From Halogeometricum limi (lineage in GTDB: Archaea; Halobacteriota; Halobacteria; Halobacteriales; Haloferacaceae), in the NCBI RefSeq assembly GCF_900115785.1, contig NZ_FOYS01000005.1:124001-188000 (forward strand): a DNA stretch of 64,000 nucleotides, in the 5' to 3' direction. Position 1 is the first letter of the stretch, and every line of letters begins with the position of its first letter. Below the pieces are notes generated by a model. The model was not told the DNA's origin. It saw only the letters and a list, made by a program, of their open reading frames with translations, and made no database searches. Positions 41,816-61,769 of the stretch are shown here, one piece after another. Position numbers and translations under genes: made by a program.

Positions 41816-42072
41816 ACAGTCGAGTATGTGTGTTACGTGATAACGTTTTCTCCCTCTGAACGTTGGTGTCTCGAACCCGCCTCGGCGCAGAAACCGTTCG
41901 GCTCTGACGGACACCCCGGCACGAGTCGGTGACACCGCTCGGCGTCTCCTCGTCGAGCCTCGTCCCGTTGTGCGCTCGCATGACGCGTTCGGTATCACCG
42001 AAACACCCAATTTCGGGAGCTATAGACCATCTACCGAGAGATTCACCACAACACTTAACCAATCACATGACG

Positions 42073-44306: not shown

Positions 44307-45071
44307 TCACTGCGACAACAGTTCGAGTTCCAGCGCGTTCGCCGCGCCCGCGACGAGGTCCGGCACTTCCTCGCGGAACTTCTCCGCCCGCATTCGATTC
44401 TTCGGCGCGGAGACGACGAGCGACCCGTGGAGACGACCGTCCGCGACGACCGGACTCGCGACGGCGCGGAAGTTCTCCATCGACTCGCAGTCCTGGAACG
44501 CGACACCCCGCTCTCGAATCTCAGCGAGGTGTTCGAACAGTTCCTCGGGGTCGGTTATCGTGTTCTCGGTCTGTGCCGGGAGGCCGTGCTGCTCGATAAT
44601 CTCTCTGACCCGGTGTTCCGGGAGGTGCGCCAGTATCGCCTTCCCCGCCGCGATGTTGTGAAGGTGGACGCGGGTGCCCATCTTTCCGTACGCCTGGACG
44701 GCGAACATGCCTTTCGCCTTGTTGACGTACACTCCCTGCCCGTACTCTTCGACGAGGAGCCACGCGATCTCGTTCGTCTGCTCCGCCAGTTGATTGAGAA
44801 CCGGTTGCGCCAGTTGTGAGACTTGGAGGTTCCGCTTCGTGTTGACACCACATTTCAGGAAGCGGAGACCGAGTCGGTATCGCTTCTCGTCTTTCACGAC
44901 GTACTCGTGTTCGACCATCGTCGTCAGGTGGTCGTACGCCGTACTCTTCGCGAGTCCGAGGTGGTCTGCGAGTTCCGTCAGGCTCGCATCTCCCAGTTCG
45001 TCGAGCGCTTCGACTATCTCGAACACCGTCGCGGTCGTCTTCACCCGCCCGATTGCGCCTTGTGCAGCCAT
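44307..45071 (-). CDS. IclR-family transcriptional regulator (catabolic island)
   Basis: A 254-residue regulator with an N-terminal HTH (ASLTELADHLGLAKSTAYDHLTTM, about residues 28-51) and an IclR ligand domain (IAAGKAILAHLPEHRVREI, and FRAVASPVVADGRLHGSLVVSAP). It is the only recognisable transcription factor in the 32-63 kb island and is therefore the best candidate to bind the palindromes at its promoters. Its own TATA-like box lies inside an inverted repeat (45089-45105), consistent with autorepression. The frame is open 60 nt further upstream without conserved sequence; ATG 45071 fits the promoter. Confidence 0.9.
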   Translation of the reverse strand: MAAQGAIGRVKTTATVFEIVEALDELGDASLTELADHLGLAKSTAYDHLTTMVEHEYVVKDEKRYRLGLRFLKCGVNTKRNLQVSQLAQPVLNQLAEQTNEIAWLLVEEYGQGVYVNKAKGMFAVQAYGKMGTRVHLHNIAAGKAILAHLPEHRVREIIEQHGLPAQTENTITDPEELFEHLAEIRERGVAFQDCESMENFRAVASPVVADGRLHGSLVVSAPKNRMRAEKFREEVPDLVAGAANALELELLSQ

Positions 45072-45459: not shown

Positions 45460-46341
45460 ATGTTACCACGTGTCGGTATCGTCGGTGCTGGACGTATGGG
45501 GTCGCGGATGGGGACGAACCTCTTGGACGCTGGCTACGAACTCACCGTCTTCGACCTCGACGAAGAACGGGTCGACGCCCTCGTGCAACGAGGTGCGACG
45601 GGTGCGACGTCGGCGTCGGACGTCGCCGCACAGTCGGACGTCGTCTTGACCAGCCTCCCTCACACCGAAGCGGTCGAAGAGACCTACCTCGGCGACGATG
45701 GACTCGTCTTCGCCGCCCGGGAGGGTTCGGTCCTGATGGAGACGAGTACCGTCGTACCCGAGGCGATAGAAGCTATCGACGAGGCGCTCGCCGACCGGGA
45801 CGTCGAGTTCGTCGACGCACCCGTCATCGGGACACCAGTCGAGGCGGCGGCGGCGACGCTCACTATCGTCGTCGGAAGCACCGCGGCGGCGTTCGACCGA
45901 GTCGACGACCTCCTCGCTACTCTCGGTGACCGCGTCGAACACGTCGGTCGACCGGGGCAGGGCAAGCGGCTCAAACTCGCGAACAACGTGATGACGTACG
46001 GGAACTTCGCCATCGCCGCAGAGATGTTCGCCGTCGTGTCACGACTCGGTATCGACCCCGAACTCTTCTTCGACGTGACCCAAAGCGGAGTCGCACAGGC
46101 GGCCATCGTCGAGACGAAGGCACCGAAACTGTTCGAGAGGGACTTCACCCCCGGATTCACGTTCGAAGGAGTGCTCAAGGACCTTCGGTACTGTCTCGAT
46201 ATGAAGACCGAGACGGGAGTCGCGACGCCTCTCGCGTCTACGGTGGTCGAACAGTACGTCCTCGGGGCGAGAGTCGCCGGGCCGGAGACGGACTACGCCG
46301 CGTTGGTCGACGCTCTCACGGACCTCGACGTTGAGGTCTGA
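45460..46341 (+). CDS. 3-hydroxyisobutyrate dehydrogenase-family oxidoreductase
   Basis: A 293-residue beta-hydroxyacid dehydrogenase. VGIVGAGRMGSRMGTNLLDAGYELTVFD is the NAD(P)-binding signature, FVDAPVIGTPVEAAAATLTIVVG the substrate-binding region (the usual SGG is replaced by IGT), and GQGKRLKLANNVMTYGNFAIAAE contains the catalytic Lys. FTFEGVLKDLRYCLDM is the conserved C-terminal helix. Relatives oxidise 3-hydroxyisobutyrate, reduce tartronate semialdehyde or act on 2-(hydroxymethyl)glutarate in nicotinate breakdown. In this island it could produce the semialdehyde used by the MmsA-like enzyme at 60 kb. Confidence 0.88.
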   Translation: MLPRVGIVGAGRMGSRMGTNLLDAGYELTVFDLDEERVDALVQRGATGATSASDVAAQSDVVLTSLPHTEAVEETYLGDDGLVFAAREGSVLMETSTVVPEAIEAIDEALADRDVEFVDAPVIGTPVEAAAATLTIVVGSTAAAFDRVDDLLATLGDRVEHVGRPGQGKRLKLANNVMTYGNFAIAAEMFAVVSRLGIDPELFFDVTQSGVAQAAIVETKAPKLFERDFTPGFTFEGVLKDLRYCLDMKTETGVATPLASTVVEQYVLGARVAGPETDYAALVDALTDLDVEV

Positions 46342-46502
46342 CCGCCCGCGGCGTAGTCCGTCTCCGCGTACCCGCCGCCCGGCGAACTCTCGTCTCGCCT
46401 CTTCTTCGGCCAGAGCCTTGATTACGCTGGACTAAACCGAGACGTTCGCGTTCGCTATCGCCGAAACGCGTCTCCCTTTTTCTCGGCGCGACGGAGATGT
46501 AC

Positions 46503-46524
46503 ATTACAGTTCTAAATTCGTAAT
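46503..46524. repeat. 22-bp element matching one upstream of orc1/cdc6
   Basis: ATTACA-N4-TAAAT-N2-GTAAT, with the same spacing as at 22771-22792. The outer six bases form an imperfect inverted repeat (ATTACA with CGTAAT here, ATTACA with TGTAAT at the other site). It lies about 0.6 kb upstream of binding-protein gene 2. Confidence 0.45.
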
Positions 46525-46757
46525 GGATGTGGAAATTTATCTGATTTCGAACTGCTGTTTTATCGACGGGACGCCGCGAGCACGTACGGAATCGAGGCCG
46601 TCGTACCCTGCTCCCGGCCGATTTCTCCGATTTCTCGCGAATCGACGCATCGCGTCGCGACGCGTGTCCGGTGTCTCCGTTTCTCGCGGACTGCTCCAAG
46701 CGTACCGTACGACCGTCCTGACCAGCCTCAGATGCGCGAATTCGACGTTTAACGGGG

Positions 46758-46854
46758 ATTTCGAGCAGATATCGGGGACGGTGAAAATCGTGTGGCGTGG
46801 TAGCATTGTTTCGGTATGTGCGAACGAACTGCTTGACGAGCATCTGCTCGAAAT
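46758..46854. repeat. 97-bp unit bounded by perfect 13-bp inverted repeats
   Basis: ATTTCGAGCAGAT at 46758-46770 and its exact reverse complement ATCTGCTCGAAAT at 46842-46854, with 71 nt between. The flanks share a loose direct repeat (CGTTTAACG before, CGTTTTACG after). It could be a hairpin RNA, a very small transposon-derived element or a distant pair of protein-binding sites. No transposase was seen. Confidence 0.4.
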
Positions 46855-47099
46855 AGCCGTTTTACGCTCTCGTACGCCTGTTCAACTCGTCGACCGATAC
46901 GCTCTCTCGACTATACGCCCGAAAACACTGCTCTGAACGTGTGTACGCGCTTTCTCAAATTGTTCGGTGTTACCGGACGATACTTCGCGATTGTGCGTTA
47001 CTGTCTACGCGCGCGGTTCCCGAACCTGTCTTCTGAAGAACTATAAGAGAATCATACAAAACGTTTATTTGTTTATGATGCGGCGGTGTTTGTGACAGT

Positions 47100-48224
47100 A
47101 TGGCACGAAGTAGGCGGACGTTCCTGAAAGCAGCCGGTATCGCAAGCGCAACCACATTCGCGGGATGTCTTGGAGGCTCGAACAGTGGCGGCAGCGGCAA
47201 CGGTGGAGGGGGCGGTAGCGGAAGCGAACAGAGCGAGGTCAACATCACGCTCGCACCCGACGGCTTCCTCGGGATAATCATGGACCACATCCACAAGGAT
47301 ACGGACATCCTCTCGGACGCGATGTCCGAGGTGGGGTACACCGCCAACGTCCAGACGAGTTGGGAGGACTCGGCGCTGTTCGCGTCGGGTGGCCCCGACT
47401 TCTCGACGATGAGTTCGCTGGAAGCGGCACTACTCGCGACCGAACGTGAGATGGACCTCTCGGTTATCGGCCGCATCTCCCCGCAGTACATGGGATGGAT
47501 GGTCGACACCGGTGGTGACTACGACCCCGACGAGACGGGCAGCGTGCAGGCGTCCATCGATGCGATAGTCGAAGACGACGCACTCGTCGGTATCGGTGCG
47601 TGGAACGGTGGCCACGTCCCCTCGGACACCATCGCGTTGCAAGAAGTGTTCGGCTACGAGTTCTCGCAGGAGGGCGGCGACTTCCGCGTCACGACGGCCG
47701 ACTACATCGCGATTCCACAACTCATCAACGATGGTAAGTTAGCTGCAGGGTCCACCTCACCCGAGCACGGCGGCGCGAAGTTCCTCGCCGGCGGCAAGGA
47801 CGAGATTACGGAACTGTTCTGGGGCACGGACGTCGCCAAAGAGAACGGTCTCGGCGTTCCGCAACTGAACTCGCTCATCACGACGCAGGAGTTCGTCGAA
47901 CAGCACGGCGACGCCGCGGCGGCGATGCAGTCCGCACTCAAAGAGGGCGTGGCGTGGCTCTTCGACGACCCCAAGGGTATCATGACCGAAGAAGCGCACA
48001 TCGAACAACTCGGTGTGAACACCGCAGAAGAGGCGGAGTACATCGTTGACTGGGGCATTAACCTCGAATACAACCTTCAGACGCCCATGATGTTCGAAGA
48101 CCCCAGCCTCACGGACAGCTTCATCGAGGCAGACAAAACCGCCATCCAGCAGGCTAACGACATCGGGTTCGTCCCCGACGGCTGGCAGGACAGAATCACC
48201 TACACTCAGGTCGACGAACTCTGA
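47100..48224 (+). CDS. ABC transporter substrate-binding lipoprotein, NMT1/SsuA-like (copy 2)
   Basis: A 374-residue exported binding protein; twin-arginine signal SRRTFLKAAGIAS, lipobox FAGC and a Gly/Ser linker of about 20 residues. The mature part is homologous to copy 1 at 42089-43243 throughout. It is 63 nt from the leader frame of the permease operon, which has a separate TATA-like box, so binding protein and membrane parts may be made at different levels. Ligand class in this family includes sulfonates, pyrimidine precursors, riboflavin and phthalate-like acids; none can be assigned. Confidence 0.87.
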   Translation: MARSRRTFLKAAGIASATTFAGCLGGSNSGGSGNGGGGGSGSEQSEVNITLAPDGFLGIIMDHIHKDTDILSDAMSEVGYTANVQTSWEDSALFASGGPDFSTMSSLEAALLATEREMDLSVIGRISPQYMGWMVDTGGDYDPDETGSVQASIDAIVEDDALVGIGAWNGGHVPSDTIALQEVFGYEFSQEGGDFRVTTADYIAIPQLINDGKLAAGSTSPEHGGAKFLAGGKDEITELFWGTDVAKENGLGVPQLNSLITTQEFVEQHGDAAAAMQSALKEGVAWLFDDPKGIMTEEAHIEQLGVNTAEEAEYIVDWGINLEYNLQTPMMFEDPSLTDSFIEADKTAIQQANDIGFVPDGWQDRITYTQVDEL

Positions 48225-48287
48225 TTGATATCAACAAACGTGCACAATTTATATAAATCAGAAGGGAGACGGCTACTACGAATCAGT

Positions 48288-48329
48288 ATGAAAGACAACG
48301 ACACACACGACAGGAGAGTAGGCCCGTGA
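48288..48329 (+). CDS. Possible 13-residue leader peptide upstream of the permease gene
   Basis: ATG 48288 opens MKDNDTHDRRVGP and stops at TGA 48327-48329, overlapping the permease GTG (GTGA). A strong TATA-like TTATATAA (48249-48256) is about 36 nt upstream, and AGGAG at 48312-48316 is 9 nt before the GTG. The arrangement is the same as at gdh: first frame on the transcript is tiny and overlaps the real gene. Coupled translation is plausible; a chance frame in a 5' UTR is the alternative. Confidence 0.4.
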   Translation: MKDNDTHDRRVGP

Positions 48330-49153
48330 GTACGAAGACTGCAGCCGGTGTGACTGACTTCGTGCCGCGGGTGATGTACACGAACGGGAAGGTTATCTTC
48401 CTCGAATCCACCGTGGCGCTTCTCGTCTTTTGGGCGCTCCTTGCGCACGGGCTGGCCCTCACCGACACCATCTCCTCGCCGACGCTCGTGTTCGCCTCCT
48501 TGGTCGAACTGCTGTTGAGTGGTGACTGGGTGGTGCACATGGCAGACACGATGCGCCGCGTGATTTACGGGTTCGTCCTCACGACCATCATCGGGACGGT
48601 ACTCGGCGTGGTGATGGGGATGTCCGACTTCTGGGAGAACGCGCTCCAAGACTACATCACCATCGGACTCGCACTGCCGTCGTTGTTCGCCGCCATCTTC
48701 GCGGCGATGTGGTTCGGTCTGAGCGACGTGACGCCGATGGTGGCCGCGGCGGCCATCGCGTTCCCGTTCCTCACCCAGAACGTCTACGAGGGCGTGAAGA
48801 ACGTCAACTACGAACTGATGGAGATGTCCAGCGCGTTCGACGTCTCCAGAAATCGCGCCATTCGGCGCGTCATCTTCCAGTCAGTGCTACCAGAGTGGTT
48901 CGCCGGTGCGCGCTACTCGTTCGCCATCTGCTGGAAGATAACGACGCTCGCGGAACTGGTGGCGGCGTCGAGCGGTATCGGCTACATGATCGAGTTCCAG
49001 ATGCACAAACTCTCCATCACGGGGGTACTGACGTGGACGGTGTTGTTCACGATGGTAATCCTCTTCGTGGAGTACGGCATCCTGCAGCAGATAGAGAAAC
49101 GTGTGTTCGCCTGGCGCCAGAGCACGGAAATCGGCATTATGGGAGGCGCGTAA
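48326..49153 (+). CDS. ABC transporter permease, SsuC-like (1)
   Basis: A 275-residue permease of the nitrate/sulfonate/taurine-type importer class. Six or so helices are visible and the ATPase-contact loop is MEMSSAFDVSRNRAIRRVIFQSVLPEW, followed by KITTLAELVAASSGIGYMI, both hallmarks of SsuC/TauC-like proteins. The GTG start has AGGAG 9 nt upstream, and overlaps the stop of a 13-codon frame. It is followed after 2 nt by the ATPase gene. Confidence 0.9.
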   Translation: MSTKTAAGVTDFVPRVMYTNGKVIFLESTVALLVFWALLAHGLALTDTISSPTLVFASLVELLLSGDWVVHMADTMRRVIYGFVLTTIIGTVLGVVMGMSDFWENALQDYITIGLALPSLFAAIFAAMWFGLSDVTPMVAAAAIAFPFLTQNVYEGVKNVNYELMEMSSAFDVSRNRAIRRVIFQSVLPEWFAGARYSFAICWKITTLAELVAASSGIGYMIEFQMHKLSITGVLTWTVLFTMVILFVEYGILQQIEKRVFAWRQSTEIGIMGGA

Positions 49154-49155
49154 AC

Positions 49156-49944
49156 ATGAGTACGAAACAATCAGAATCCGTCAGCGCAGAGAGCATCGAT
49201 TCACAGAGTGCGGCCTCGATTCACCTCGAGAACCTCGGGAAAACGTTCGACACGAAAGAGGGAACGGAGGAGGTGTTCTCGGGTATCGACCTCGATATCG
49301 AACCTGGCACGTTCGTCTGTCTCCTCGGGAAGTCCGGTAGCGGGAAGTCGACGATGCTGAACATCGTCAGCAACGTGCTCGAACCCACCGAAGGGAGAGT
49401 CGTGTTCCGGAACCGGGACGGGAGCGAAGACGTCAACCTCGGCCACGTGTTCCAGTCGCCGCGACTCCTCCCGTGGAACACCTGCGTCCAGAACATCGAG
49501 TACGTCCACGAGAACAACCCCGACTACGAAGACAGCCACGCGAAGCGATACCTCGACTTGGTCGGTCTGAAGAACCACTACAACAAGTACCCGACACAGC
49601 TTTCCGGCGGCCAACAACAGCGCGTCGGAATCGCACGGGCACTCAGCATCGACCCGGGGGTCCTCCTCATGGACGAACCGTTCAGCAACCTCGACGAGAT
49701 TACGGCCGAGGGACTTCGTGAGGAACTCGTCCGCGTCTGGCAGAAGCTGGACAAAACGGTGTTCTTCGTCACGCACGACATGACGGAGGCGATTCAGCTC
49801 TCCGACCGCATCTTGATGCTCGGTAAGGGCCGCATCTACGGTGACTTGGAGAACCCGTTGGACCGTCCCAGAGAACTCGACTCGAACGAGTTCTTGGAGT
49901 TCCGTCAAAAAGCAATCCGGCTGTTCCACAGCATCGAGGACTGA
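49156..49944 (+). CDS. ABC transporter ATPase, SsuB/TauB-like
   Basis: A 262-residue ATPase. Walker A LGKSGSGKST is at about 57-66, the Q-loop in GHVFQSPRLLPW, the signature LSGGQQQRVGIARAL, Walker B VLLMDEPFSNLDE and the H-loop FFVTHDMTEAI are all present. PRLLPW is the mark of the SsuB/TauB/NrtD group. It lies between two permease genes (2-nt gaps on both sides), an arrangement suggesting a heterodimeric membrane part. Confidence 0.92.
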   Translation: MSTKQSESVSAESIDSQSAASIHLENLGKTFDTKEGTEEVFSGIDLDIEPGTFVCLLGKSGSGKSTMLNIVSNVLEPTEGRVVFRNRDGSEDVNLGHVFQSPRLLPWNTCVQNIEYVHENNPDYEDSHAKRYLDLVGLKNHYNKYPTQLSGGQQQRVGIARALSIDPGVLLMDEPFSNLDEITAEGLREELVRVWQKLDKTVFFVTHDMTEAIQLSDRILMLGKGRIYGDLENPLDRPRELDSNEFLEFRQKAIRLFHSIED

Positions 49945-49946
49945 CG

Positions 49947-50753
49947 ATGGCCACTTCCGATAAAACAGCGATTCGCGGTATTCGACTTCCGTCGAGTCTG
50001 ACCGCTCGTATCTTCGGCATTCTCGTCGGTCTGGCTGCGTGGATGCTGCTGGCGGCGGTGTTCCCGAACAACCTGATGCCGTTCCCACTGGAGACGCTCG
50101 GACTGGCGTGGGGACTGGTCGAGAGCGGCGTCGCCTGGCGCCACCTCGGCGCGACGCTCTGGCGGACGCTCTGGGGCTTCGTCGGGTCGATGATACTCGG
50201 GACGGCCATCGGTGTCCTGATGGGCGTCAACAACTACAGTCGGCGCTTCTTCACGCCGTACGTCGTCATCGGCCTCTCGATACCGGCCATCGCGTGGGCG
50301 GCCGTGACGACGCTCATCTTCGGGTTCACGCTGATGGGCCCCGTGGGTGCGACGGTGCTGACAACGTTCCCCTACATCGCCATCAACGTCTGGAAGGGCG
50401 TCGAGAGCATCGAGAACGACCTGGTGGACATGTCGAAGGCGTTCGACATCACCCGTCCCCGGATGCTCGCCCGTCTCATCATCCCGAGCGCCGCCCCGTT
50501 CCTGTTTAGCGGGTTCCGATTCGGACTGGCAATCTCGTGGAAGATCGTCACCATCGCCGAAATCTTCGCCGCGTCGAGCGGTGTCGGCTACAAGCTGATG
50601 CAGACGTACCAACTCTACCAGTTCGAGACGGCGTGGGCGTGGGCCATCCTGTTCATCATCGTCATCCTCATCGTCGAGTACGGATTCGTGAAGCCGCTCG
50701 AACGGCGCGTCTTCGAGTACCGCCGTGACGCAGACTTCGCCCTACTCGGCTGA
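49947..50753 (+). CDS. ABC transporter permease, SsuC-like (2)
   Basis: A 268-residue permease, related to the first (VDMSKAFDITRPRMLARLIIPSAAPF, then SWKIVTIAEIFAASSGVGYKL). Having two different permeases around one ATPase implies a heterodimer, whereas bacterial SsuC is normally a homodimer. It ends 25 nt before the FAD subunit of the molybdenum hydroxylase on the same strand, so transporter and hydroxylase genes are probably in one transcription unit, supporting the idea that the imported compound is the hydroxylase substrate. Confidence 0.92.
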   Translation: MATSDKTAIRGIRLPSSLTARIFGILVGLAAWMLLAAVFPNNLMPFPLETLGLAWGLVESGVAWRHLGATLWRTLWGFVGSMILGTAIGVLMGVNNYSRRFFTPYVVIGLSIPAIAWAAVTTLIFGFTLMGPVGATVLTTFPYIAINVWKGVESIENDLVDMSKAFDITRPRMLARLIIPSAAPFLFSGFRFGLAISWKIVTIAEIFAASSGVGYKLMQTYQLYQFETAWAWAILFIIVILIVEYGFVKPLERRVFEYRRDADFALLG

Positions 50754-50778
50754 GTGAACTACCCCGCATCTACACATC

Positions 50779-51669
50779 ATGAAACCAGCAGCATTCGACT
50801 ATCACACGCCCGCCGACCTCGACGACGTGTTCGACCTCTTCGAGTCGTATCCGGAGGCGGAACTCGTCGCCGGAAACCAGTCGCTCGGCATCGTCATGGC
50901 GAACCGACTCGCGACGCCGGAGCATCTGATCGACCTCGGTGGCGTCGACGAACTGCGCGGTATCGACGTCGCGGACGACGTTGCCCGCGTCGGCGCGATG
51001 ACGACGCACCGTGACCTCGAACGGTCAGCCGCGTTGAAAGAGACGATTCCGATGCTCCCGGACGCGGCCAGACAGATTGCGGGCCCGAGCGTTCGGTCGC
51101 GCGGCACGCTGGGGGGAAGTCTGGCCGAAGCCGACCCCGCGGGGAACTACCCCGCGGCACTCGTCGCTCTCGACGGGACGCTCCACCTTCGCTCGCGGGA
51201 CGACGCCCGAGACGTCTCCGCCGAAGAGTTCTTCGTGGCGTACATGTTCACGGACCTCCGGGAGGACGAACTCATCGAGTCGGTCACCGTCTCCCGCGAC
51301 CCGTTTCCGACGGACCGAACGGGGATGGCGTTCGAGGAACTCAAGCGCGCCGCGCAGACGTTCCCGACGGTGAGTGCGGCGGCCGTCGTTCGCGTCGACG
51401 ACCCGGACGCGAGCGAGCCGGTTGTCGAGCACGCCCGCGTCGCCCTCGCGAACGCGGCGGACGTGCCGCTTCTCGTCGGCGGCGTGAGCGAGGCGGTCGA
51501 AGGCGAACCGCTCACGGACGAGACGGTTGCCGAGGCGGCCGACGTCGCGGAGGCGGCCGCCGACCCGGCGGGCGAACTCCACGCGGACACGGAGTTCAAG
51601 ACCGAGGTGGCGGCCGAGTACACGCGCATCGCCCTGACGAACGCACACGAACGAGCGATAGAGACCTAA
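50779..51669 (+). CDS. FAD-binding medium subunit of a xanthine-dehydrogenase-type Mo hydroxylase
   Basis: A 296-residue subunit (CoxM/XdhB-like) carrying FAD. FDYHTPADLDDVFDLF starts the domain; AGNQSLGIVMANRL and AGPSVRSRGTLGGSLAEADPAGNYPAAL are the two FAD-contact motifs, slightly altered from the usual AGGxSL and GNLxxAxPAxD. It passes electrons from the 2Fe-2S subunit to the final acceptor. The iron-sulfur and Mo subunits are 3.8 kb downstream, with four genes in between, so the operon is split. Confidence 0.88.
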   Translation: MKPAAFDYHTPADLDDVFDLFESYPEAELVAGNQSLGIVMANRLATPEHLIDLGGVDELRGIDVADDVARVGAMTTHRDLERSAALKETIPMLPDAARQIAGPSVRSRGTLGGSLAEADPAGNYPAALVALDGTLHLRSRDDARDVSAEEFFVAYMFTDLREDELIESVTVSRDPFPTDRTGMAFEELKRAAQTFPTVSAAAVVRVDDPDASEPVVEHARVALANAADVPLLVGGVSEAVEGEPLTDETVAEAADVAEAAADPAGELHADTEFKTEVAAEYTRIALTNAHERAIET

Positions 51670-51691
51670 CAGAGACAAACAGAGAACCACT

Positions 51692-52189
51692 ATGACAATG
51701 GAATTCAGCGGTACGGCGGAACTGGACGCGAACAGAGAGACGGCCTGGGCGTACTTCACCGACCCGGACGTCCTCGCGCGCTGTGCGCCGGGGTGTAAGT
51801 CGATGACGGCGAAGTCGTCCTCGGAACTGGAGGCGACGCTCTCCGTCGGCGTCGGGAGCGTCCGCCCGACGTTCGACGTGGATATCGTCATCACCGAGTC
51901 GCAGTACCCCGCACTCCTGCGGATGGCGGCCGACGGCGACGCGTCGCGGAACGCGTTCGAGACGACGGCCGAGATGCAACTGCGCGAGGCCGAAGACGGC
52001 ACGTCGGTCGCCGAGTGGACGGCGTCCGCGGAAGTGTCGGGGCTGCTCGCTAGTCTCGGTCAGCGCGCACTCGGGAGCGTGACGCAACGACTCGTCGGGT
52101 CGTTCTTCGACGACCTCGAAGACGAGATTCAGTCCGGCGCTCCGGCGGAGTCGCGACTCGAAGCGGCAGAGGCCTCAGAAACGGTCTGA
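51692..52189 (+). CDS. CoxG-like SRPBCC protein
   Basis: A 165-residue protein of the CO-dehydrogenase subunit G family (SRPBCC fold). It has MEFSGTAELDANRETAWAYFTDPDVLARCAPGCKSM, the typical first strand and the conserved C-A-P-G-C, and a C-terminal GLLASLGQRALGSVTQRLVGSFFDDLE helix. CoxG proteins assist membrane anchoring or assembly of Mo hydroxylases. It lies 22 nt after the FAD subunit. A second ATG two codons downstream is an alternative start. Confidence 0.85.
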   Translation: MTMEFSGTAELDANRETAWAYFTDPDVLARCAPGCKSMTAKSSSELEATLSVGVGSVRPTFDVDIVITESQYPALLRMAADGDASRNAFETTAEMQLREAEDGTSVAEWTASAEVSGLLASLGQRALGSVTQRLVGSFFDDLEDEIQSGAPAESRLEAAEASETV

Positions 52190-52226
52190 GACGACGACGT
52201 TCGCCGTCCAGTCTTCTCCTGTTCGA

Positions 52227-53198
52227 TCAGTCGACGTTCGCGAGCAGACGCAGTGCGTTCCCGCTGAGCACCGCCTCCGAGTCGGTGTCCGAGGCGACGT
52301 CCAGCACCGTCGTCGCGAAGCGGCTCAACTCGTCGGCGTCGCGAGCTTCGTACGGCGCGTCCGTCCCGAACAGCACCTGCGAACTGGGGAACTCTTCGAG
52401 CGTCGTTCGGATGGGCGCGTGGTAGCCGTAGAATCCGGACGTGTCGACGAAGACGCGCGATTCGAGCTTCTGCTTGAAGTCGTCGAACGACTCGATGTGT
52501 TCTTGTCCCGGCCATCGTCCGAGGATGTGGTGGAGGTGGACGCGGCCCATCATGCTCGCGATGTTGCCACCGAGGTGGTGGAAGACGAGGTTCAGGTCCG
52601 GGTAGTCGTCGAGGATTCCCATGTGGACGACTTCGAGGATGCTCTGTGAGAGTGCCGCCTCACGGCCGAACACGGCGTTCAGCCGGTACTTGTCGTCGAG
52701 AACGTCCACCTCGGGGTGCAGCGAGACGTCTATCTTCGGGTGGACGAGCAACGGCGCGCCCTCGCGGTCTGCGACTTCGAGAACCGGTCTGACCTCCTCG
52801 TCGGTGAGTTTCGTCCCGTTCGACATCGTCTCCAGCGCGCCGCCGTTGTAGCCGCGGTCCAGACAGCGCTCCAGTTCGTCGGCCGCCTCGCCGCCGCTTG
52901 CACCGACGGGAAGCGCGGCGAGGCCGTACAGGTCGTCGTCGCCCTCGACGATGTCCATCAGGTCGTCGTTCGCGTTCCGCGTTCGCTCGACGTCCGTGGA
53001 CCCCATGAACGGTGGCTGCGAGAGAACCAGTCGGTCGATTCCGGCGTTCTTGTAGCGGTCTATCGTCGCCTCGGGGTCGGTGTGCACCGGACCGATTCGG
53101 TCGTCCAACGGTTCCATGAACTCGGGAACGTCGGTAACGAGGTGTGCGCCGAAGTCGATTATCGGGAACTCACGGTCCGCTCTGGCTGTGTAAGGCAT
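52227..53198 (-). CDS. Amidohydrolase-2 family protein (ACMSD-like)
   Basis: A 323-residue TIM-barrel amidohydrolase of the group that includes aminocarboxymuconate-semialdehyde decarboxylase and 2-pyrone-4,6-dicarboxylate hydrolase. Later metal/catalytic positions are kept: His in PLLVHPKID, His-His in LNLVFHHLGGNIASM, and Asp in VLFGTDAPYEA. At the N-terminus, where DxHxH is expected, it reads IIDFGAHLV, so the first His is replaced by Gly. It is the only minus-strand gene between 47 and 61 kb, facing away from the cyclase gene, with CTTATG about 27 nt upstream of its start. Confidence 0.82.
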   Translation of the reverse strand: MPYTARADREFPIIDFGAHLVTDVPEFMEPLDDRIGPVHTDPEATIDRYKNAGIDRLVLSQPPFMGSTDVERTRNANDDLMDIVEGDDDLYGLAALPVGASGGEAADELERCLDRGYNGGALETMSNGTKLTDEEVRPVLEVADREGAPLLVHPKIDVSLHPEVDVLDDKYRLNAVFGREAALSQSILEVVHMGILDDYPDLNLVFHHLGGNIASMMGRVHLHHILGRWPGQEHIESFDDFKQKLESRVFVDTSGFYGYHAPIRTTLEEFPSSQVLFGTDAPYEARDADELSRFATTVLDVASDTDSEAVLSGNALRLLANVD

Positions 53199-53322
53199 TC
53201 GGTCTCACAATCGGAACTCCATCGCTTATGTGTTGTGGTGATTGTGGACAGTCGACGCGGCCGCCGCAGGGGAACCAACCGAGGTACACAGTTAAGGGAC
53301 CGTCTCTCGTCACACACGACGT

Positions 53323-54024
53323 ATGGTAACACTCGTCGACCTCTCACAGGAGATATACCACGACCAGCCCGTTTACCACACGCACCAGAAGACGGTGATG
53401 TGGACGGACACCGCACACGAGGACACGAAACACATGTTCGAAGAGGAACTCGGCCGAGAACCGCCGTTCTCGTTCGAGACGCGCGGACTCCTCCTCTGCG
53501 ACCACGGCCCGACGCACGTCGACGCGCCCGCACACTACCGCGAAGACGGTGCGACGACGGCGGAACTGCCCTTAGAACAGTTCTACACGCCCGGGAAGGC
53601 AATCGACGTCTCCCATCGCGGGCCAGGCGAGTACATCACCGCCGACGACGTGAGGTCGGCCTGCGACGAGGCGGACGTCACCGTCGAGGAGGGCGACGCC
53701 GTCCTCCTCAGAACCGGCCACTACGACGAGTTCCACCCGAGCAAACAGTACGTCTCGAACTACCCCGGACTCGACGCGGAGGCGACGGAGTGGCTTGTCG
53801 ACCGCGGCGTCGTGAGTTTCGGCGTCGACCAGCCGAGTCCGGACATCCCGAGCGACCTGACGTACCCGTGCCACACCGTCTGTATGGAACACGACTTACC
53901 ACACATGGAGAACCTCCGAAACATCGACGCCGTCGTCGGCGTCGACTTCACGCTCGTCGCCTTCCCCCTCGCGATTCGCGACGGAACCGGGTCACCGATA
54001 CGACCCGTCGCTATCGTCGAATAG
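53323..54024 (+). CDS. Cyclase-family metal-dependent hydrolase (kynurenine formamidase-like)
   Basis: A 233-residue protein with the family-defining DHGPTHVDAPAHY (HxxTHxDxPxH, about residues 64-76), which binds zinc. VEEGDAVLLRTGHYDEF and VVSFGVDQPSPD are the other conserved segments. Relatives hydrolyse N-formylkynurenine, isatin or other ring amides and lactams. It starts a new plus-strand run that continues into the HisD-like and Mo-hydroxylase genes. Confidence 0.87.
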   Translation: MVTLVDLSQEIYHDQPVYHTHQKTVMWTDTAHEDTKHMFEEELGREPPFSFETRGLLLCDHGPTHVDAPAHYREDGATTAELPLEQFYTPGKAIDVSHRGPGEYITADDVRSACDEADVTVEEGDAVLLRTGHYDEFHPSKQYVSNYPGLDAEATEWLVDRGVVSFGVDQPSPDIPSDLTYPCHTVCMEHDLPHMENLRNIDAVVGVDFTLVAFPLAIRDGTGSPIRPVAIVE

Positions 54025-54029
54025 TGTGA

Positions 54030-54062
54030 CTCGTTAGCACGAGGATTTATTACACATATAGC
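54030..54062 (+). promoter_or_regulatory. Promoter of the HisD-like gene with operator-like sequences
   Basis: CTCGT-TAGC-ACGAG (54030-54043) lies just upstream of the TATA-like GATTTATTAC (about 54043-54052), and ACACATATAGC (54052-54062) follows it. The last resembles the right half of the dyad at 60270-60294 (GCACATATCAGC). The ATG is at 54079, so the half-site lies between TATA box and predicted transcription start. Confidence 0.4.
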
Positions 54063-54078
54063 CTAACCTTCTCCCGAC

Positions 54079-55371
54079 ATGGGTAAGCAACGCTATCTCA
54101 AAGAAGCCAGTGCCACGTCACTCGTCATCGAACCGGAAGTCGTCGACACCGTCCAGGACATCGTCTCTTCGGTGAGAGAAGACGGCGACAGCGCAGTCAA
54201 CGAACTCACCGCCAAGTTCGACGGCGTCGAACGCGACGACTTGCGAGTCGACCAAGCAGAGATAGACGCCGCGGGTGAGAAACTCACCGACGAACACAGA
54301 GAGGCCATCGACTACACCATCCAGAACGTGCGTGAGTTCCACTCACGACAGCTGGACAACATAAACGGATTCGAAGCGGAGTTCAAACCGGGTGTCACGC
54401 TGGGTCAGCGTGTCATTCCTATCGAGACCGCGGGCGTCTACATCCCGGGTGGCCGGCATCCACTCGTCGCGACGCCGGCGATGACCATCGTTCCCGCCGC
54501 CGTCGCGGGCGTCGAACGAATCATCGCCTGCGCGCCGCCGCAGGCGGACGGGACGGTCGAACCGGCGCAGTTGTACGCGATGTCCGAGGCGGGCGTCGAC
54601 GAGATATACTGCATCGGCGGTGCACAGGCCGTCGCGGCGATGGCGTACGGAACGGAGAGCGTCCCCGCCGTCGACATCGTCACCGGGCCGGGGAACGTCT
54701 TCACGACCGAAGCGAAGCGGCAGGTGTTCGGCCACGTGGGAATCGACTTCCTCGCCGGACCGAGCGAGGTGCTCGTCGTCGCCGACGAGACTGCCGACGT
54801 GGAAGTCGTCGCCGCGGACCTTCTCGCACAGGCCGAACACGACACGAACGCTCGCGCCGTTCTCATCTCTCTGGACCGCGACCACGCCGAGGCGGTCGTC
54901 GAGGAACTGGAGAGCCAACTCCCGCACTTGCAGACCGAAGAGACGGCTCGGGAGTCGTGGAACGAGAACGGCGAAGTACTCGTCGTCGAAGACAGAGAGG
55001 CGGCCGTCGACGCGGCGAACGACTACGCGATGGAGCATCTCCAACTGATGATGGACGACGCGGACGAGTTGGTAGATGACTTGCGAAACTACGGGTCGCT
55101 GTTCATCGGCCACCACGCACCGGTCGTCTTCGGCGACAAGACGGTCGGCACGAACCACTGCCTTCCGACGCTCCGCATCGCGCGCTACAACAGCGGTATC
55201 TGGGTCGGGACGTATCTCAAGACGCCGACCCACCAACGACTCACGGCCGACGGCGCGGCCGAACTCGCCCCGTGGGCGGCCACCATCTGCGAGATAGAGG
55301 GGACGCACGGGCATCGACTGTCCGCACTCAGGCGCTCGAAGACGACCGAGACGAGTGTCGCCGATGAGTGA
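54079..55371 (+). CDS. Histidinol-dehydrogenase-family NAD-dependent dehydrogenase (HpsN-like)
   Basis: A 430-residue HisD-fold protein: ETAGVYIPGGRHPLVATPAMT, VDIVTGPGNVFTTEAKRQVFG, FLAGPSEVLVVAD, EHDTNARAVL and TNHCLPT are conserved, with the final His in GHRLSALRR. It opens with GKQRYLKEASATS, and has ARYNSGIWVGTYLKTPTHQ where biosynthetic HisD has ARFSSGLS, resembling the HpsN-type sulfopropanediol dehydrogenase branch. Context is catabolic; no his genes are near. It likely oxidises a primary alcohol to an acid in two steps. Its stop overlaps a possible GTG start (GTGA) of the next frame. Confidence 0.82.
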   Translation: MGKQRYLKEASATSLVIEPEVVDTVQDIVSSVREDGDSAVNELTAKFDGVERDDLRVDQAEIDAAGEKLTDEHREAIDYTIQNVREFHSRQLDNINGFEAEFKPGVTLGQRVIPIETAGVYIPGGRHPLVATPAMTIVPAAVAGVERIIACAPPQADGTVEPAQLYAMSEAGVDEIYCIGGAQAVAAMAYGTESVPAVDIVTGPGNVFTTEAKRQVFGHVGIDFLAGPSEVLVVADETADVEVVAADLLAQAEHDTNARAVLISLDRDHAEAVVEELESQLPHLQTEETARESWNENGEVLVVEDREAAVDAANDYAMEHLQLMMDDADELVDDLRNYGSLFIGHHAPVVFGDKTVGTNHCLPTLRIARYNSGIWVGTYLKTPTHQRLTADGAAELAPWAATICEIEGTHGHRLSALRRSKTTETSVADE

Positions 55372-55478
55372 CCGGCAGAGACAGAGACCAGACGACGAAT
55401 CCGACGAATCCGATACCGAACTATACACCGACCGGCCGTGACGGCCACCCACAACCCACTGACGAAACACATCACACG

Positions 55479-55982
55479 ATGACCGAACATACGACATCCG
55501 AGCGACCACAGCGAGACGTACAGTTGACGGTGAACGGCGACGCCGTGACGTCGACCATCGAGCCACGAACCAAACTCTCGGACTACCTCAGAGAGGAGTG
55601 TAACCTCACCGGCGTCAGAGTCGGCTGTGAACACGGCGTCTGCGGCGCGTGCACGGTCTTAGTCGACGGTGAGCCGGTGAAATCCTGTCTCACCTACGCC
55701 GTCCAGGTGACCGACTCGACGGTCGAGACCGTCGAAGGACTCTCCGACGGGAGCGAACTCCACCCCATCCAGGAAGCGTTCCACGAGGAGAACGCGCTTC
55801 AGTGTGGGTTCTGCACCAGCGGGTTCGTCATGTCCACGAAGGCGCTCTTAGCGGAGCACCCCGACCCGGACGACGAGGAGATCGAAGCGGGCCTCTGCGG
55901 GAACATCTGCCGCTGTACCGGCTACAGCCCCATCTACGACGCCGTCTACCGCGCAGCGGACGCGATGGAGGGAGGGGACTGA
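55479..55982 (+). CDS. 2Fe-2S subunit of the xanthine-dehydrogenase-type Mo hydroxylase
   Basis: A 167-residue CoxS/XdhC-small-type iron-sulfur subunit. The plant-type cluster ligands are in CEHGVCGACTVLVDGEPVKSC, and the second cluster in CGFCTSGFVM and CGNICRCTGY. ATG 55479 was chosen because family proteins begin shortly before VQLTVNGD; an in-frame GTG at 55368 overlaps the HisD-like stop and would add 37 non-conserved residues. Its stop overlaps the ATG of the Mo subunit (TGATG). Confidence 0.92.
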   Translation: MTEHTTSERPQRDVQLTVNGDAVTSTIEPRTKLSDYLREECNLTGVRVGCEHGVCGACTVLVDGEPVKSCLTYAVQVTDSTVETVEGLSDGSELHPIQEAFHEENALQCGFCTSGFVMSTKALLAEHPDPDDEEIEAGLCGNICRCTGYSPIYDAVYRAADAMEGGD

Positions 55983-58429
55983 TGTCCGAGAGCGCGCCGA
56001 AGTCGTCCGAGGTTCCCGACGCCGACGACGAGGGAAAACGGTACACCGGGACGTCGATGCGCCGGGTCGAGGACTTCGACATCCTCACCGGCCGCGTCGA
56101 CTACATCCACGATATCGACCTGCCAGGCTGTCTCCACGCGGCACTCGTCCGCGCGCCGCACGCGCACGCGGCTATCGAGGAGGTAGACACGTCGGCGGCC
56201 GAGTCGCATCCGGACTGCGAACTCGTCCTCACGGCGGCGGACATCGAAGAGCACTACCAGCAGACGCCGGGACGACTGGGATTCAAGGAGTGGGCGTTGG
56301 CACACGACCGCGTCAGATTCGCGGGCGAACCCGTCGCGATGGTCGTCGCCGCCGACCGCTACGTCGCCGAGGACGTCGCGGACCTGGTCGACGTGAGTTA
56401 CGACGTGCTCGACCCGGTCACCGACGTGTACGCGGCGTCCGACGACGAGGTGCTTCTCCACGAAGAGACCGGGACGAATCTCGCCGACCGCGACGAGTTC
56501 GTCTTCGGCGACGTCGAGGGCGCGTTCGAGGACGCCGACAACGTCGTCGAAGGCGAGTACTCGTGGGGGCGAATCTCCGGCGTTCCGATGGAGACGGCCG
56601 GTGCCGTCGCCGACTACGACTCCGACACCGACTCGTTCGACGTCCACTGTAATCTGCAACTGTACACGTTCAACGGCGAACTCGTCTACGAGTCGCTCGG
56701 CTACCCCGCCGAGAAGGTCCGCCTCCACGTTCCGGAGAACATCGGTGGGAGTTTCGGGACGAAAATCGCCGCCGGCGCGCGATACTGCGCGCTCGCGGCC
56801 ATGGCGAGCCACCAGTTGGAGCGCCCGGTCAAGTACGTCGAGGACCGTATCGAGTACTTACAGGCCGGCGACTCACACTCCTGCGAACGCGAGTACAGCG
56901 TCCGTCTCGCCGTCGACGACGACGGGACGATACGCGGCTACGACGTCTCGTTCATGGACGACCTGGGCGCGTTCCCCCGCTATCCGCTTCCACAGGCGGT
57001 GAAGCCGCTGTCCGTCCTCTCGACGTCGTACCACATCGACACCGTCCGCTACGAGTACGAACTCTACTTGACGAACAAGGTGCCGCAGACCGCCTACCGC
57101 GGGTTCGGCGTGCAACAGCACACGTTCGCCCTCGAGATGACGCTCGAGAAAGCCGCTCGCGAACTCGGCGTCGACCCCACCGAACTCCGACGGCAGAACC
57201 TCGTCCGACCCGACGAGATGCCGTACGAACTCCCCTCGAAGAACATCTACGACTCCGGCGACTATCCGGCCGCACTCGCTCGAATCGAGGAACTCGTCGA
57301 CGAACGAGAGCGTTGTGAAGGAGGGCTGTTGGACCCCGACGTGGTCGAAGCGAAGCGCGAAGAAGGGAAGTACCGCGGCACGCGCCCCGCGGTGACGCTC
57401 GAACCGTCCGCGGGAGTCATCGACTACGCGAGTCGCTTCGAGATGAGCGACGACGAAATCGAGGCGAACACGCGCGAGGACGTGGCGAGTTTCCCCGAAC
57501 ACCTCGCCGCGGACCTTCGCCCGGACGGTACGGTCACCGTCCACTTGGCGACCAGTTCCGCCGGACAGGGCCACCAGACGGTCGTGATTCAACTGATGGC
57601 CGACGGACTGGGTATCTCGCCGGCCGACATCGACGTGGACTACCTGAACAGCGCCGAGGCCCCGAAAGACTTCGGCGCGGCGGCGTCCCGGATGGGAATC
57701 ATGCTCTCCGGGGCGAGCGTCGGACTCGCCGACGAACTGGCCACCGTTTTCGAGGGGGCCGCGGCCACCCATTGGGGCTGTGACCCGGCGGACGTGACGT
57801 ACGCCGACGGAGCCGTCACGCGAGATGGCGGCGGCGACTCGCTGTCGCTCGCCGACCTCGCGGAATTCGTCGACGACGACGGACACACGGCGACGTACGG
57901 CTACGAGAACCCCGCGTTCGACCTTCCGGAGTTCGACGATGCACTGGTCGATAAGCTCCCTACGTACCCCGGAACGGCGTACTGCGCCGACGCGCCCATC
58001 GTCGAGGTGGACGTCAACACCGGTCACGTGGACATCCTCCGGTACTACTCGCTGCACGACTGCGGGACCGTACTGAACCCGGACATCGTCCAAGGCCAAG
58101 TCGAGGGGGCTATCGCTCACGGCATCGGGGGCGCACTGCTCGAAGAGTTCGCCTACGACGACTCGGGACAACCGCTCGCGGTCACGATGTTCGACTACCT
58201 CCTTCCGTCCATCACGAACGTCCCCGAGATGGTGGTCGAACACCGCGAGACGCCGTCGCCGTTCACTGTGACGGGTGCGAAAGGGGCGGGCGAGGGCGGT
58301 ACCATCTCGGCGTCTGCGGTCATTCCCACGTCGATAAACGCCGCGTTGGAACCGCTGGGAGTGACCGTCGACACCGTCCCCGTGACGCCGGACCGACTCC
58401 GAGCGAAGCTTCGGGACGAGGTCGAATGA
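55982..58429 (+). CDS. Molybdopterin-binding large subunit of the Mo hydroxylase
   Basis: An 815-residue subunit with the catalytic Mo centre. GGSFGTKIAAGARY (about 255-268) is the Mo-cofactor motif, QTAYRGFGVQQHTFALE (about 369) the active-site loop, and TGAKGAGEGGTISASAV (about 764) contains the catalytic Glu. The AYRGFG loop is of the xanthine dehydrogenase/aldehyde oxidase type, not the AYRCSFR loop of form I CO dehydrogenase, so a hydroxylated organic substrate is expected. The N-terminal alpha/beta domain (YTGTSMRRVEDFDILTGRVDYIHDI) is complete. ATGA overlap with SDR copy 3 follows. Confidence 0.92.
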   Translation: MSESAPKSSEVPDADDEGKRYTGTSMRRVEDFDILTGRVDYIHDIDLPGCLHAALVRAPHAHAAIEEVDTSAAESHPDCELVLTAADIEEHYQQTPGRLGFKEWALAHDRVRFAGEPVAMVVAADRYVAEDVADLVDVSYDVLDPVTDVYAASDDEVLLHEETGTNLADRDEFVFGDVEGAFEDADNVVEGEYSWGRISGVPMETAGAVADYDSDTDSFDVHCNLQLYTFNGELVYESLGYPAEKVRLHVPENIGGSFGTKIAAGARYCALAAMASHQLERPVKYVEDRIEYLQAGDSHSCEREYSVRLAVDDDGTIRGYDVSFMDDLGAFPRYPLPQAVKPLSVLSTSYHIDTVRYEYELYLTNKVPQTAYRGFGVQQHTFALEMTLEKAARELGVDPTELRRQNLVRPDEMPYELPSKNIYDSGDYPAALARIEELVDERERCEGGLLDPDVVEAKREEGKYRGTRPAVTLEPSAGVIDYASRFEMSDDEIEANTREDVASFPEHLAADLRPDGTVTVHLATSSAGQGHQTVVIQLMADGLGISPADIDVDYLNSAEAPKDFGAAASRMGIMLSGASVGLADELATVFEGAAATHWGCDPADVTYADGAVTRDGGGDSLSLADLAEFVDDDGHTATYGYENPAFDLPEFDDALVDKLPTYPGTAYCADAPIVEVDVNTGHVDILRYYSLHDCGTVLNPDIVQGQVEGAIAHGIGGALLEEFAYDDSGQPLAVTMFDYLLPSITNVPEMVVEHRETPSPFTVTGAKGAGEGGTISASAVIPTSINAALEPLGVTVDTVPVTPDRLRAKLRDEVE

Positions 58430-59205
58430 TTCCTCTCGACCTCTCTGGTGAGACGGCCCTCGTGACGGGCGGCGGACGCGGAATCGGTGCCGTCGTCGCG
58501 GACACGTTCGCCGAGGCGGGCGCGGACGTCGCCGTCGCCGCGCGGACCGAGAGCGAACTGGCCAAGACGGTCGAACGAATCGAGTCACACGGGAGACGCG
58601 GCGTGGCACTCCCAACGGACCTCCGCGACGCGGACGCTATCGAAGAGTTGGTCGCGGACGCGACAGACCGACTGGGGACGCCGTCGATACTCGTGAACAA
58701 CGCGGCCGCGAACCTCGCCGGACCGCTCTCGGAGATGAGCGTCGACGAGGTGGACACCATGTTGGAGACGAACCTCCGCGCGACGTTCCTCCTCTCGCAG
58801 GCGTGGGCGGATGCGTATCGGGAGTCCTCGCGGACCTCGGGCCGCATCATCAACGTATCTAGCCTCACTGGCCGTCTCGGCGTCCCACGGATGACGCTCT
58901 ACTCGGGGACGAACGCCGGTATCGAGTCCGTCTCGCGCGGGTTCGCCGCGGAGTTGGCTCGCGACGGCGTCACCGTCAACTGGGTCGTGCCGGGACTCGT
59001 CGGTATCGACCGCATCAGGAACCTCGTCGACGAACAGGGCGACGACATCTACGACCTCGACCGCATCCCCCTCGGCGACTTGGGGGAGGCGGTCGACATC
59101 GCGCACGCCTGTCTATTCTTCGCCTCCGAGATGGCATCGTACGTGACGGGCGCGGAACTCGTCGTCGACGGCGGCGTCTCGTTCACCGCGGGTCTGTACC
59201 GCTGA
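58426..59205 (+). CDS. SDR-family protein with altered catalytic motif (SDR copy 3)
   Basis: A 259-residue SDR paralogous to copy 2 at 40303-41082. The cofactor motif TGGGRGIGAVVA and Ser in NVSSLTGRLG are present, but the Tyr-x3-Lys motif reads YSGTN, so Asn (codon AAC) replaces the catalytic Lys. The NNAG motif is NNAAANLAG. The ending VDGGVSFTAGLYR matches copy 2. It may be inactive, act as a partner subunit or use altered chemistry. It overlaps the Mo subunit by ATGA, so it is firmly within the hydroxylase operon. Confidence 0.87.
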   Translation: MIPLDLSGETALVTGGGRGIGAVVADTFAEAGADVAVAARTESELAKTVERIESHGRRGVALPTDLRDADAIEELVADATDRLGTPSILVNNAAANLAGPLSEMSVDEVDTMLETNLRATFLLSQAWADAYRESSRTSGRIINVSSLTGRLGVPRMTLYSGTNAGIESVSRGFAAELARDGVTVNWVVPGLVGIDRIRNLVDEQGDDIYDLDRIPLGDLGEAVDIAHACLFFASEMASYVTGAELVVDGGVSFTAGLYR

Positions 59206-59250
59206 CGCCGCCGGGGTGACGTTTAACAACCCTCCCGTCGAACGGCAACC

Positions 59251-60216
59251 ATGACACGTAGAGTCGTGTTCACAGACCACACGTTCGATAACCTGTCGAT
59301 AGAACGCGAAATCCTCGACCCGATAGACGTCGAACTCGTCGACGGCGAGGCGAGCGACGAACCGTTGACGGAACTGCTCCGCGACGCCGACGGCGTCTTA
59401 GTGATGTACGAACAGATAGACGCGGACGTCATCGACGAACTCTCCTGTCGCGTCATCTCTCGAACCGGCATCGGCGTGGACAACGTCGACATCGACGCGG
59501 CAACCGAGCGCGGCATCTACGTGACGAACGTTCCCGACTACTGCATCGCGGAGGTGTCGGACCACACGTTGGCGCTCCTGCTCGGCCTCCAGCGAAAGGT
59601 GGTCACCTACCACGAACAGGTCGAGAACGGTGAGTGGGACGTGATGGCCGGCAGACCAATGCACCGACTCGACGGGCGAACGTTCGCCCTCGTCGGCTTC
59701 GGGGCCATCGCGCGCGCCGTCGCGGAGAAGGTACAGGCGTTCGGGATGGACGTCCGCGCGCACGACCCGTATCTGTCCGACGAGGAGATTCGGGAGGCCG
59801 GGGTCGAACCCGCGCCCGACCTTCAGACGCTGTTCACCGACGCCGACGCCGCCTCGGTTCACGTTCCGCTGACCGAGGAGACGCGCGGACTCGTCGGCGA
59901 GAGGGAACTCGCTGCGATGAACTCGTCCGGGTACGTTCTCAACACCGCCCGCGGCGGCATCGTCGACGAAGCGGCGCTGGTCGACGCCCTCGACGCCGGC
60001 GAAATCGCGGGCGCGGGACTCGACGTATTGGTGGACGAACCGCCCGCCGACGACCACCCGCTCCGACGGGACCCGCGGGTAATTCTCACGCCGCACGCGG
60101 CGTGGAACTCGGTCGAAAGCGTCGTCGAACTCCGCGAGAAGGCGGCGACGAACGTTCGAGACGCGCTCGAAGGCGAGGTTCCCACCTACCTCGTCAATCG
60201 AGAACTCGCCGAGTAA
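59251..60216 (+). CDS. D-isomer-specific 2-hydroxyacid dehydrogenase
   Basis: A 321-residue NAD(P)-dependent 2-hydroxyacid dehydrogenase (PGDH/glyoxylate reductase type). The cofactor fold is ALVGFGAIARAVAEKVQAFGMDVRAHDP, the catalytic Arg is in VLNTARGGIVDE, Glu in DVLVDEPPADDHPL and His in ILTPHAAWNS. GTTTAAC lies about 27 nt before the ATG. It could reduce a 2-oxo acid or oxidise a 2-hydroxy acid made during degradation. It sits between SDR copy 3 and the semialdehyde dehydrogenase. Confidence 0.9.
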   Translation: MTRRVVFTDHTFDNLSIEREILDPIDVELVDGEASDEPLTELLRDADGVLVMYEQIDADVIDELSCRVISRTGIGVDNVDIDAATERGIYVTNVPDYCIAEVSDHTLALLLGLQRKVVTYHEQVENGEWDVMAGRPMHRLDGRTFALVGFGAIARAVAEKVQAFGMDVRAHDPYLSDEEIREAGVEPAPDLQTLFTDADAASVHVPLTEETRGLVGERELAAMNSSGYVLNTARGGIVDEAALVDALDAGEIAGAGLDVLVDEPPADDHPLRRDPRVILTPHAAWNSVESVVELREKAATNVRDALEGEVPTYLVNRELAE

Positions 60217-60269
60217 ATTCAATTCACCTGACAAGCGAGTTACCACAGACGGAACAGCTATAATGCGGT

Positions 60270-60294
60270 GTGCTGATATTGCACATATCAGCAC
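60270..60294. promoter_or_regulatory. Perfect 25-bp dyad operator upstream of the semialdehyde dehydrogenase
   Basis: Left arm GTGCTGATAT (60270-60279), spacer TGCAC, right arm ATATCAGCAC (60285-60294): all ten pairs match. It starts a few bases after the TATA-like CTATAATG (60258-60265) and ends 2 nt before the ATG at 60297, covering the predicted transcription start. This is a textbook repressor position for a leaderless gene; the island's IclR protein is the nearest candidate binder. Confidence 0.65.
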
Positions 60295-60296
60295 GT

Positions 60297-61769
60297 ATGA
60301 AGCAGACAGCAGTCTCCACGGACGGTCCAGTCCGTAACTACGTCGGCGGCGAGTGGACAGACATCGAGAGCGACGACGGACAACCGGTGTACAACCCCGC
60401 GACGGGAGAGCAACTCTCTCACGTCGCCTTTTCGACCCCGGAAGCCGTCGACGACGCCGTTTCGACGGCCCAGCGAGCGTTCGAGAGTTGGGGGTCGCTC
60501 CCGGTCGAAGAACGCATTCAACCCCTGTTCCGACTGAAGGCGTTGCTCGAAGAGCATCAAGACGAACTCACCCGTCTCCTCGTCACCGAACACGGGAAGA
60601 CGTACAAGGAGGCCAGCGGCGAGATTCGGCGCGGCATCGAGAACGTGGAGGTCGCGTGCGGCATCCCGTCGATGATGCAAGCAGGCCATCTCCCGAACGC
60701 CGCACCGGGTATCGACGAGACGGCGGTCAGGAAGCCGCTCGGGGTGTTCACGGCGATTACACCGTTCAACTTCCCCGCGATGATTCCGCTGTGGTTCCTC
60801 CCGTACGCCGTCGCGACGGGCAACACGTTCATCCTCAAGCCGAGCGAGAAAGTGCCGCTCACGGCCCAGTACATCGTCGAACTCGCCGACGAGGCGGGCT
60901 TCCCAGACGGTGTGGTGAACCTGGTCAACGGGGGGAAAGAGACGGTCGGGGCACTCCTCGAACACGAGGGAATCGCCGGCGTCTCGTTCGTCGGGAGCAC
61001 GCCGGTCGCACGCATCATCTACGAGACGGCCGCGAAGAACGGCAAGCGGGTTCAGGCGCAGGGCGGTGCGAAGAACTACGTCGCCGTCTCCGACTCCGCC
61101 GACCTGGAGTTCGCCGCCGAAAAGGTGTTCTCCGCGGCGTGCGCCTGCGCGGGCGAACGATGTCTGGCGCTCGACGTCGTCGTCGTCCACGAGGACGTGT
61201 ACGACGAGTTCGCCGATCTGATCGTCGAACAGGCCGAACGTGCGGTCCTCGGTGACGGCCTCGAAGACGATACCGACATCGGCGCGCTGATCACCGCAGA
61301 ACACGAGCAGAACGTCCGAGAGTTCGTCGAAACGGGCATCGAAGAGGGTGCGACGCTCCTGCGAGACGGCCGCGAGGACACGGTTGACGGCCGCGAGGAC
61401 GGCAACTTCCTCGGTCCGACGGTGTTCGGTGACGTCACCTCAGAGATGGTCGTCGCCCAAGAGGAGATATTCGGTCCGGTCGTCGGTCTCGCGCGAGCGT
61501 CGGACTTCGACGAGGCGATAGAGACGGTGAACGCGACGCGGTTCGGGAACGCCGCCAGCGTGTTCACCGAACGAGGGGGCGAGGCCCGCCAGTTCCGGAT
61601 GGAAGTCGACGCCGGGAACGTCGGCGTCAACGTCGGCACCGTCGCACCGATGGCGTTCTTCCACTTCGGTGGCCGGAAGGACTCGTTCTTCGGCGACCTG
61701 CACGCGCAGGGTGAAGACGCGATTCACTTCTACACCGACAAGACCATCTACGTCGAACGGTGGCCCTGA
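60297..61769 (+). CDS. mmsA: CoA-acylating methylmalonate-semialdehyde dehydrogenase
   Basis: A 490-residue ALDH of the MmsA/IolA branch, which converts malonate or methylmalonate semialdehyde plus CoA to acetyl- or propionyl-CoA. VRNYVGGEWTDIESDDGQPVYNPATGEQ is the MmsA-like N-terminus; PFNFPAMIPLWFLPYAVATGNTFILKPSE is the cofactor region, and the catalytic Cys is in CAGERCLALDVVVV. RKDSFFGDLHAQGEDAIHFYTDKT is typical of MmsA. ATG 60297 fits the promoter; an upstream in-frame start at 60270 would begin inside the operator. It probably performs the last step feeding central metabolism. Confidence 0.9.
   Translation: MKQTAVSTDGPVRNYVGGEWTDIESDDGQPVYNPATGEQLSHVAFSTPEAVDDAVSTAQRAFESWGSLPVEERIQPLFRLKALLEEHQDELTRLLVTEHGKTYKEASGEIRRGIENVEVACGIPSMMQAGHLPNAAPGIDETAVRKPLGVFTAITPFNFPAMIPLWFLPYAVATGNTFILKPSEKVPLTAQYIVELADEAGFPDGVVNLVNGGKETVGALLEHEGIAGVSFVGSTPVARIIYETAAKNGKRVQAQGGAKNYVAVSDSADLEFAAEKVFSAACACAGERCLALDVVVVHEDVYDEFADLIVEQAERAVLGDGLEDDTDIGALITAEHEQNVREFVETGIEEGATLLRDGREDTVDGREDGNFLGPTVFGDVTSEMVVAQEEIFGPVVGLARASDFDEAIETVNATRFGNAASVFTERGGEARQFRMEVDAGNVGVNVGTVAPMAFFHFGGRKDSFFGDLHAQGEDAIHFYTDKTIYVERWP

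Follow-up and report, generated by a model that had tools for sequence, protein, structure and literature searches.

A lone perfect dyad between the TATA-like box and the start codon of a haloarchaeal mmsA gene is an operator candidate

The dyad described here lies directly upstream of mmsA in a haloarchaeal window (the whole stretch of DNA that was analysed, 64,000 nt), which is part of a 387-kb contig with an Orc1/Cdc6-type gene. The mmsA start codon at 60297 is supported by the N-terminal extents of relatives. The preceding dehydrogenase gene shares the strand of mmsA and is separated from it by 80 nt, and no regulator gene adjoins mmsA. The features relevant to the promoter and its possible regulation are the following.

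44307..45071, minus strand: IclR-family regulator gene (Pfam IclR_C, HTH_IclR), in the same catabolic cluster as mmsA
59251..60216, plus strand: D-2-hydroxyacid / phosphoglycerate-type dehydrogenase gene (Pfam 2-Hacid_dh, 2-Hacid_dh_C)
~60258..60264, plus strand: TATA-like box CTATAAT, read in the sequence
60270..60279, plus strand: dyad left arm GTGCTGATAT, read in the sequence
60280..60284, no strand: dyad 5-nt spacer TGCAC, read in the sequence
60285..60294, plus strand: dyad right arm ATATCAGCAC, read in the sequence
60297..61769, plus strand: mmsA, CoA-acylating methylmalonate-semialdehyde dehydrogenase (TIGR01722, 535 bits against a cut-off of 448.5; Pfam Aldedh)

The sequence from 60270 to 60294 is a perfect 10+5+10 dyad, GTGCTGATAT-TGCAC-ATATCAGCAC, in which the AT-rich arms pair at 10 of 10 positions and the right arm ends 2 nt before the mmsA ATG. 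Its sequence, coordinates, full symmetry around TGCAC and 2-nt gap to the ATG are exactly those described in an initial sequence-only reading of this DNA. The dyad occupies the interval 10-34 nt downstream of the TATA centre, between the TATA-like box and the ATG, and a purine-rich GACGGAACAG just 5′ of CTATAAT is a possible BRE. As would be expected of an operator, the element is a two-fold symmetric sequence that overlaps the core promoter, with the start site placed from the position of the TATA-like box. Elsewhere in the window, a perfect 10+13+10 inverted repeat (CGGTTCGAGG/CCTCGAACCG) is found at 33026-33058, in the gap that precedes a glyoxalase-domain gene.

The TATA centre lies ~35 nt from the mmsA ATG; among relatives whose TATA box is clear, the distances group at 24-28 and 30-32 nt (about 27 or 31). 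Transcription of mmsA is expected to start near 60288, ~26 nt after the TATA centre and within the right arm, so that a dyad-bound protein would sit over the start site; the leader would then be ~9 nt. Comparison of the TATA-ATG distance with that of relatives predicts an mmsA leader of ~8-10 nt. Leaderless transcripts in Haloferax volcanii are defined as having leaders of 0-5 nt (PMC4983044), and the mmsA transcript is probably not strictly leaderless. The proposal in the sequence-only reading that a repressor would block a leaderless transcript is consequently doubtful in this part, since the predicted leader is short and falls just outside the definition.

Several counts bear on whether the dyad is a functionless chance palindrome that caught attention because patterns of this kind were looked for throughout the window. 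Of 20,000 dinucleotide shuffles of this intergenic stretch, 32 (0.16%) contained a dyad that was perfect over at least 10 pairs, with no more than 20 nt between its arms. Across the window, nine perfect 10-bp inverted repeats with spacers of at most 20 nt were seen against a shuffle mean of 6.65, an observation consistent with chance; most of the others listed are rich in GC, and several of them fall within coding frames. Such repeats are not rare window-wide; a count restricted to promoters is the fairer test. Among 239 predicted promoters, from 386.5 kb of the contig sampled in stretches and with spacers limited to 8 nt, arms of at least 10 were seen at one promoter, that of mmsA, against 0.125 expected, a value estimated from few shuffle events. 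The mmsA dyad is the longest perfect short-spacer dyad in this sample. In the same promoters, dyads with arms of at least 7 (7-10 seen) numbered 19, compared with ~6.5 expected, and this over-representation indicates that a dyad in these promoters is generally meaningful. Perfect arms of at least 10 were found at 2 of 558 promoters from the window and related haloarchaeal loci, the second being a GC-rich repeat in locus L044. In sum, the dyad is unusual but not overwhelmingly so: its corrected significance is modest, and the number expected by chance across the replicon is not negligible. The earlier description of it as the strongest operator-like signal in the window is fair for short-spacer dyads at promoters.

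The dyad is also a singleton. No second site with up to 3 mismatches was found in the whole genome, and the inner 8+5+8 core has one poor match elsewhere in it. Matches were present in 13 of 391 other genomes of the order, all at 3 mismatches, compared with 9 genomes for a reversed control pattern, and the dyad is therefore not enriched across the order. No mmsA relative adjoins any of these 3-mismatch places, five of which are in coding-like frames. No recognisable copy was detected in the upstream regions of 93 ALDH relatives and paralogues, where the best candidate had mismatches at 8 of 20 positions; the nearest relatives are only 58-72% identical, so this comparison does not reach very recent conservation. 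The mmsA promoter in the matching cluster of Natrinema ejinorense has no dyad either. The sequence-only reading had expected an operator to be conserved upstream of orthologous mmsA genes, and the lack of copies at mmsA relatives, at Natrinema mmsA and in the rest of the genome runs in part against its claim. A genome-wide regulon was rejected, as the dyad is single and the 14 looser TGATAT-N5-ATATCA places that were read have no extended-arm dyad. A phage contig does contain the identical arm pattern within an unrelated gene; a mobile or phage origin was rejected, this one exact viral match lying in an unrelated coding frame and being taken as chance. Searches of open-licence papers returned no description of the dyad motif, the matches looking incidental (primers, for example). 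Among the papers listed, none concerned a regulator of haloarchaeal mmsA. As a separate observation, in Halorubrum sp. 48-1-W the sequence TTTACTGATTAAATATATCAGTAAA (9+7+9; L034, ~7667-7693) immediately precedes the ATG of an amidohydrolase gene; it has the layout of the mmsA dyad, and its CTGAT/ATCAG half-sites are separated by 7 nt rather than 9.

The solitary occurrence, the lack of conservation in the relatives compared and the viral match are all what a chance palindrome would give. Such an account is harder to reconcile with AT-rich arms placed exactly between TATA and ATG, where chance yields few dyads, and with the rank of the dyad among the sampled promoters. On balance, a chance origin appears less likely than a repressor site. 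Singleton status lowers the case for an operator without excluding it, because single-target operators exist.

The dyad could instead act in RNA, with read-through from the upstream dehydrogenase gene yielding a transcript in which a hairpin ending 2 nt before the AUG limits mmsA translation. The orientation and proximity of the upstream gene would allow this, and the 10-bp hairpin is present in both the predicted minimum-free-energy structure and the centroid. However, the 114-nt region folds no better than its shuffles (z = -0.41), a result that is also in keeping with a chance palindrome, and transcription directed by the nearby upstream TATA-like box would begin within the dyad. In Haloferax volcanii, moreover, leaderless transcripts make up 72% of the protein-coding ones, and leaders with structure are called untypical (PMC4983044). 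The RNA hairpin was rejected for its lack of excess stability, and we consider this mode of action very improbable.

The identity of a possible DNA-binding partner was considered in the context of the surrounding genes. The interval 44307-61769 is a catabolic cluster containing an ABC importer, molybdopterin hydroxylase subunits, a HisD-like protein, a cyclase, the PGDH-like dehydrogenase, mmsA and the IclR-family regulator, and its content is largely matched in Natrinema ejinorense. Orthologues of mmsA, IclR (58% identical to the window protein), and the HisD-like, PGDH-like, CoxL-like and Fe-S proteins are grouped there (L071, L134, L135), together with those of the amidohydrolase, CoxG, FAD subunit, ABC transporter and solute-binding protein. 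This matching gene content indicates that the IclR gene belongs to the catabolic cluster of mmsA, a linkage the sequence-only reading had guessed correctly. Its further step, naming this IclR as the protein to be assayed on the dyad, finds no support in the sequences. No dyad-like site is present in the promoters of the window cluster's IclR, solute-binding protein, HisD and cyclase genes. Several IclR orthologue promoters share a different palindrome, GTTCGG-N5-CCGAAC, with two perfect copies in Natrinema (L071 IclR promoter, -76 and -262). L010 has a perfect copy and another with 1 mismatch, L048 has copies at 1 and 2 mismatches, and L007 has one at 2 mismatches; the palindrome is missing from the orthologue loci L019 and L030. 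In the window, 1-mismatch copies lie upstream of the solute-binding protein gene (46962-46978) and where the FAA-hydrolase gene begins (41987-42003). GTTCGG-N5-CCGAAC is a candidate site of this IclR from sequence comparison, but the motif is common in this genome, with 85 places within 1 mismatch, and the copies at the IclR promoter of the window itself all have 3 mismatches, so that for this genome it is a lead only. Separately, the Natrinema solute-binding protein promoter (L071, 4400-4440) contains the palindrome AGTGCTTCCAAGCACT between TATA and ATG, with GTGC/GCAC ends as in the mmsA dyad and a different spacing.

Membership in the same cluster is thus what favors the dyad as operator of the IclR protein encoded at 44307-45071. 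The cluster promoters and Natrinema mmsA without the dyad, and the other palindrome at orthologue promoters, argue against it, as does the fact that the haloarchaeal IclR proteins that PMC11519228 lists are activators. IclR was rejected as the preferred binder on the grounds of the promoter comparisons; nothing points specifically to it as the regulator, and we judge that assignment improbable.

The reading we prefer, with a probability of roughly 0.55, is that the dyad is a putative lineage-specific operator, confined to one promoter, of a dimeric helix-turn-helix repressor. Such a repressor would bind ~10-34 nt downstream of the TATA centre, cover the expected mmsA start and block either the loading or the escape of RNA polymerase, and an inducer would release it to permit mmsA transcription. 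The repressor site proposed in the sequence-only reading is partly borne out: the rarity of the dyad among promoters argues mildly for it, its lack of recurrence and its absence from the available relatives count against it, and the link to IclR has no sequence support. More tentatively, the dyad might be the private, single-target operator of a haloarchaeal mmsA repressor of undescribed specificity (GTGCTGATAT-N5-ATATCAGCAC), acquired in this lineage as the TATA-ATG distance grew by some nucleotides. The element is real, well placed and alone, and we regard it as an ordinary operator candidate. If it is an operator, it would offer a clean 25-bp probe for isolating the haloarchaeal repressor that binds it, and halophile genetics would gain a tightly controlled promoter.

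Two groups of known regulators provide relevant comparisons. The haloarchaeal IclR proteins XacR, GacR, RhcR and MscR regulate catabolic clusters, and an IclR gene shares a catabolic cluster with mmsA here. Those proteins activate (PMC11519228); as further differences from these systems, the dyad is missing at the other promoters of the cluster and the IclR orthologue promoters share another palindrome. In archaeal TrmB systems, binding downstream of TATA inhibits (PMC10817205). The sequence of the mmsA dyad is unrelated to the operators of TrmB homologues, and it is a single genomic site with no regulon. Its architecture is nevertheless like theirs (PMC10817205): a palindrome that lies between TATA and the start codon, over the expected transcription start, in a metabolic promoter.
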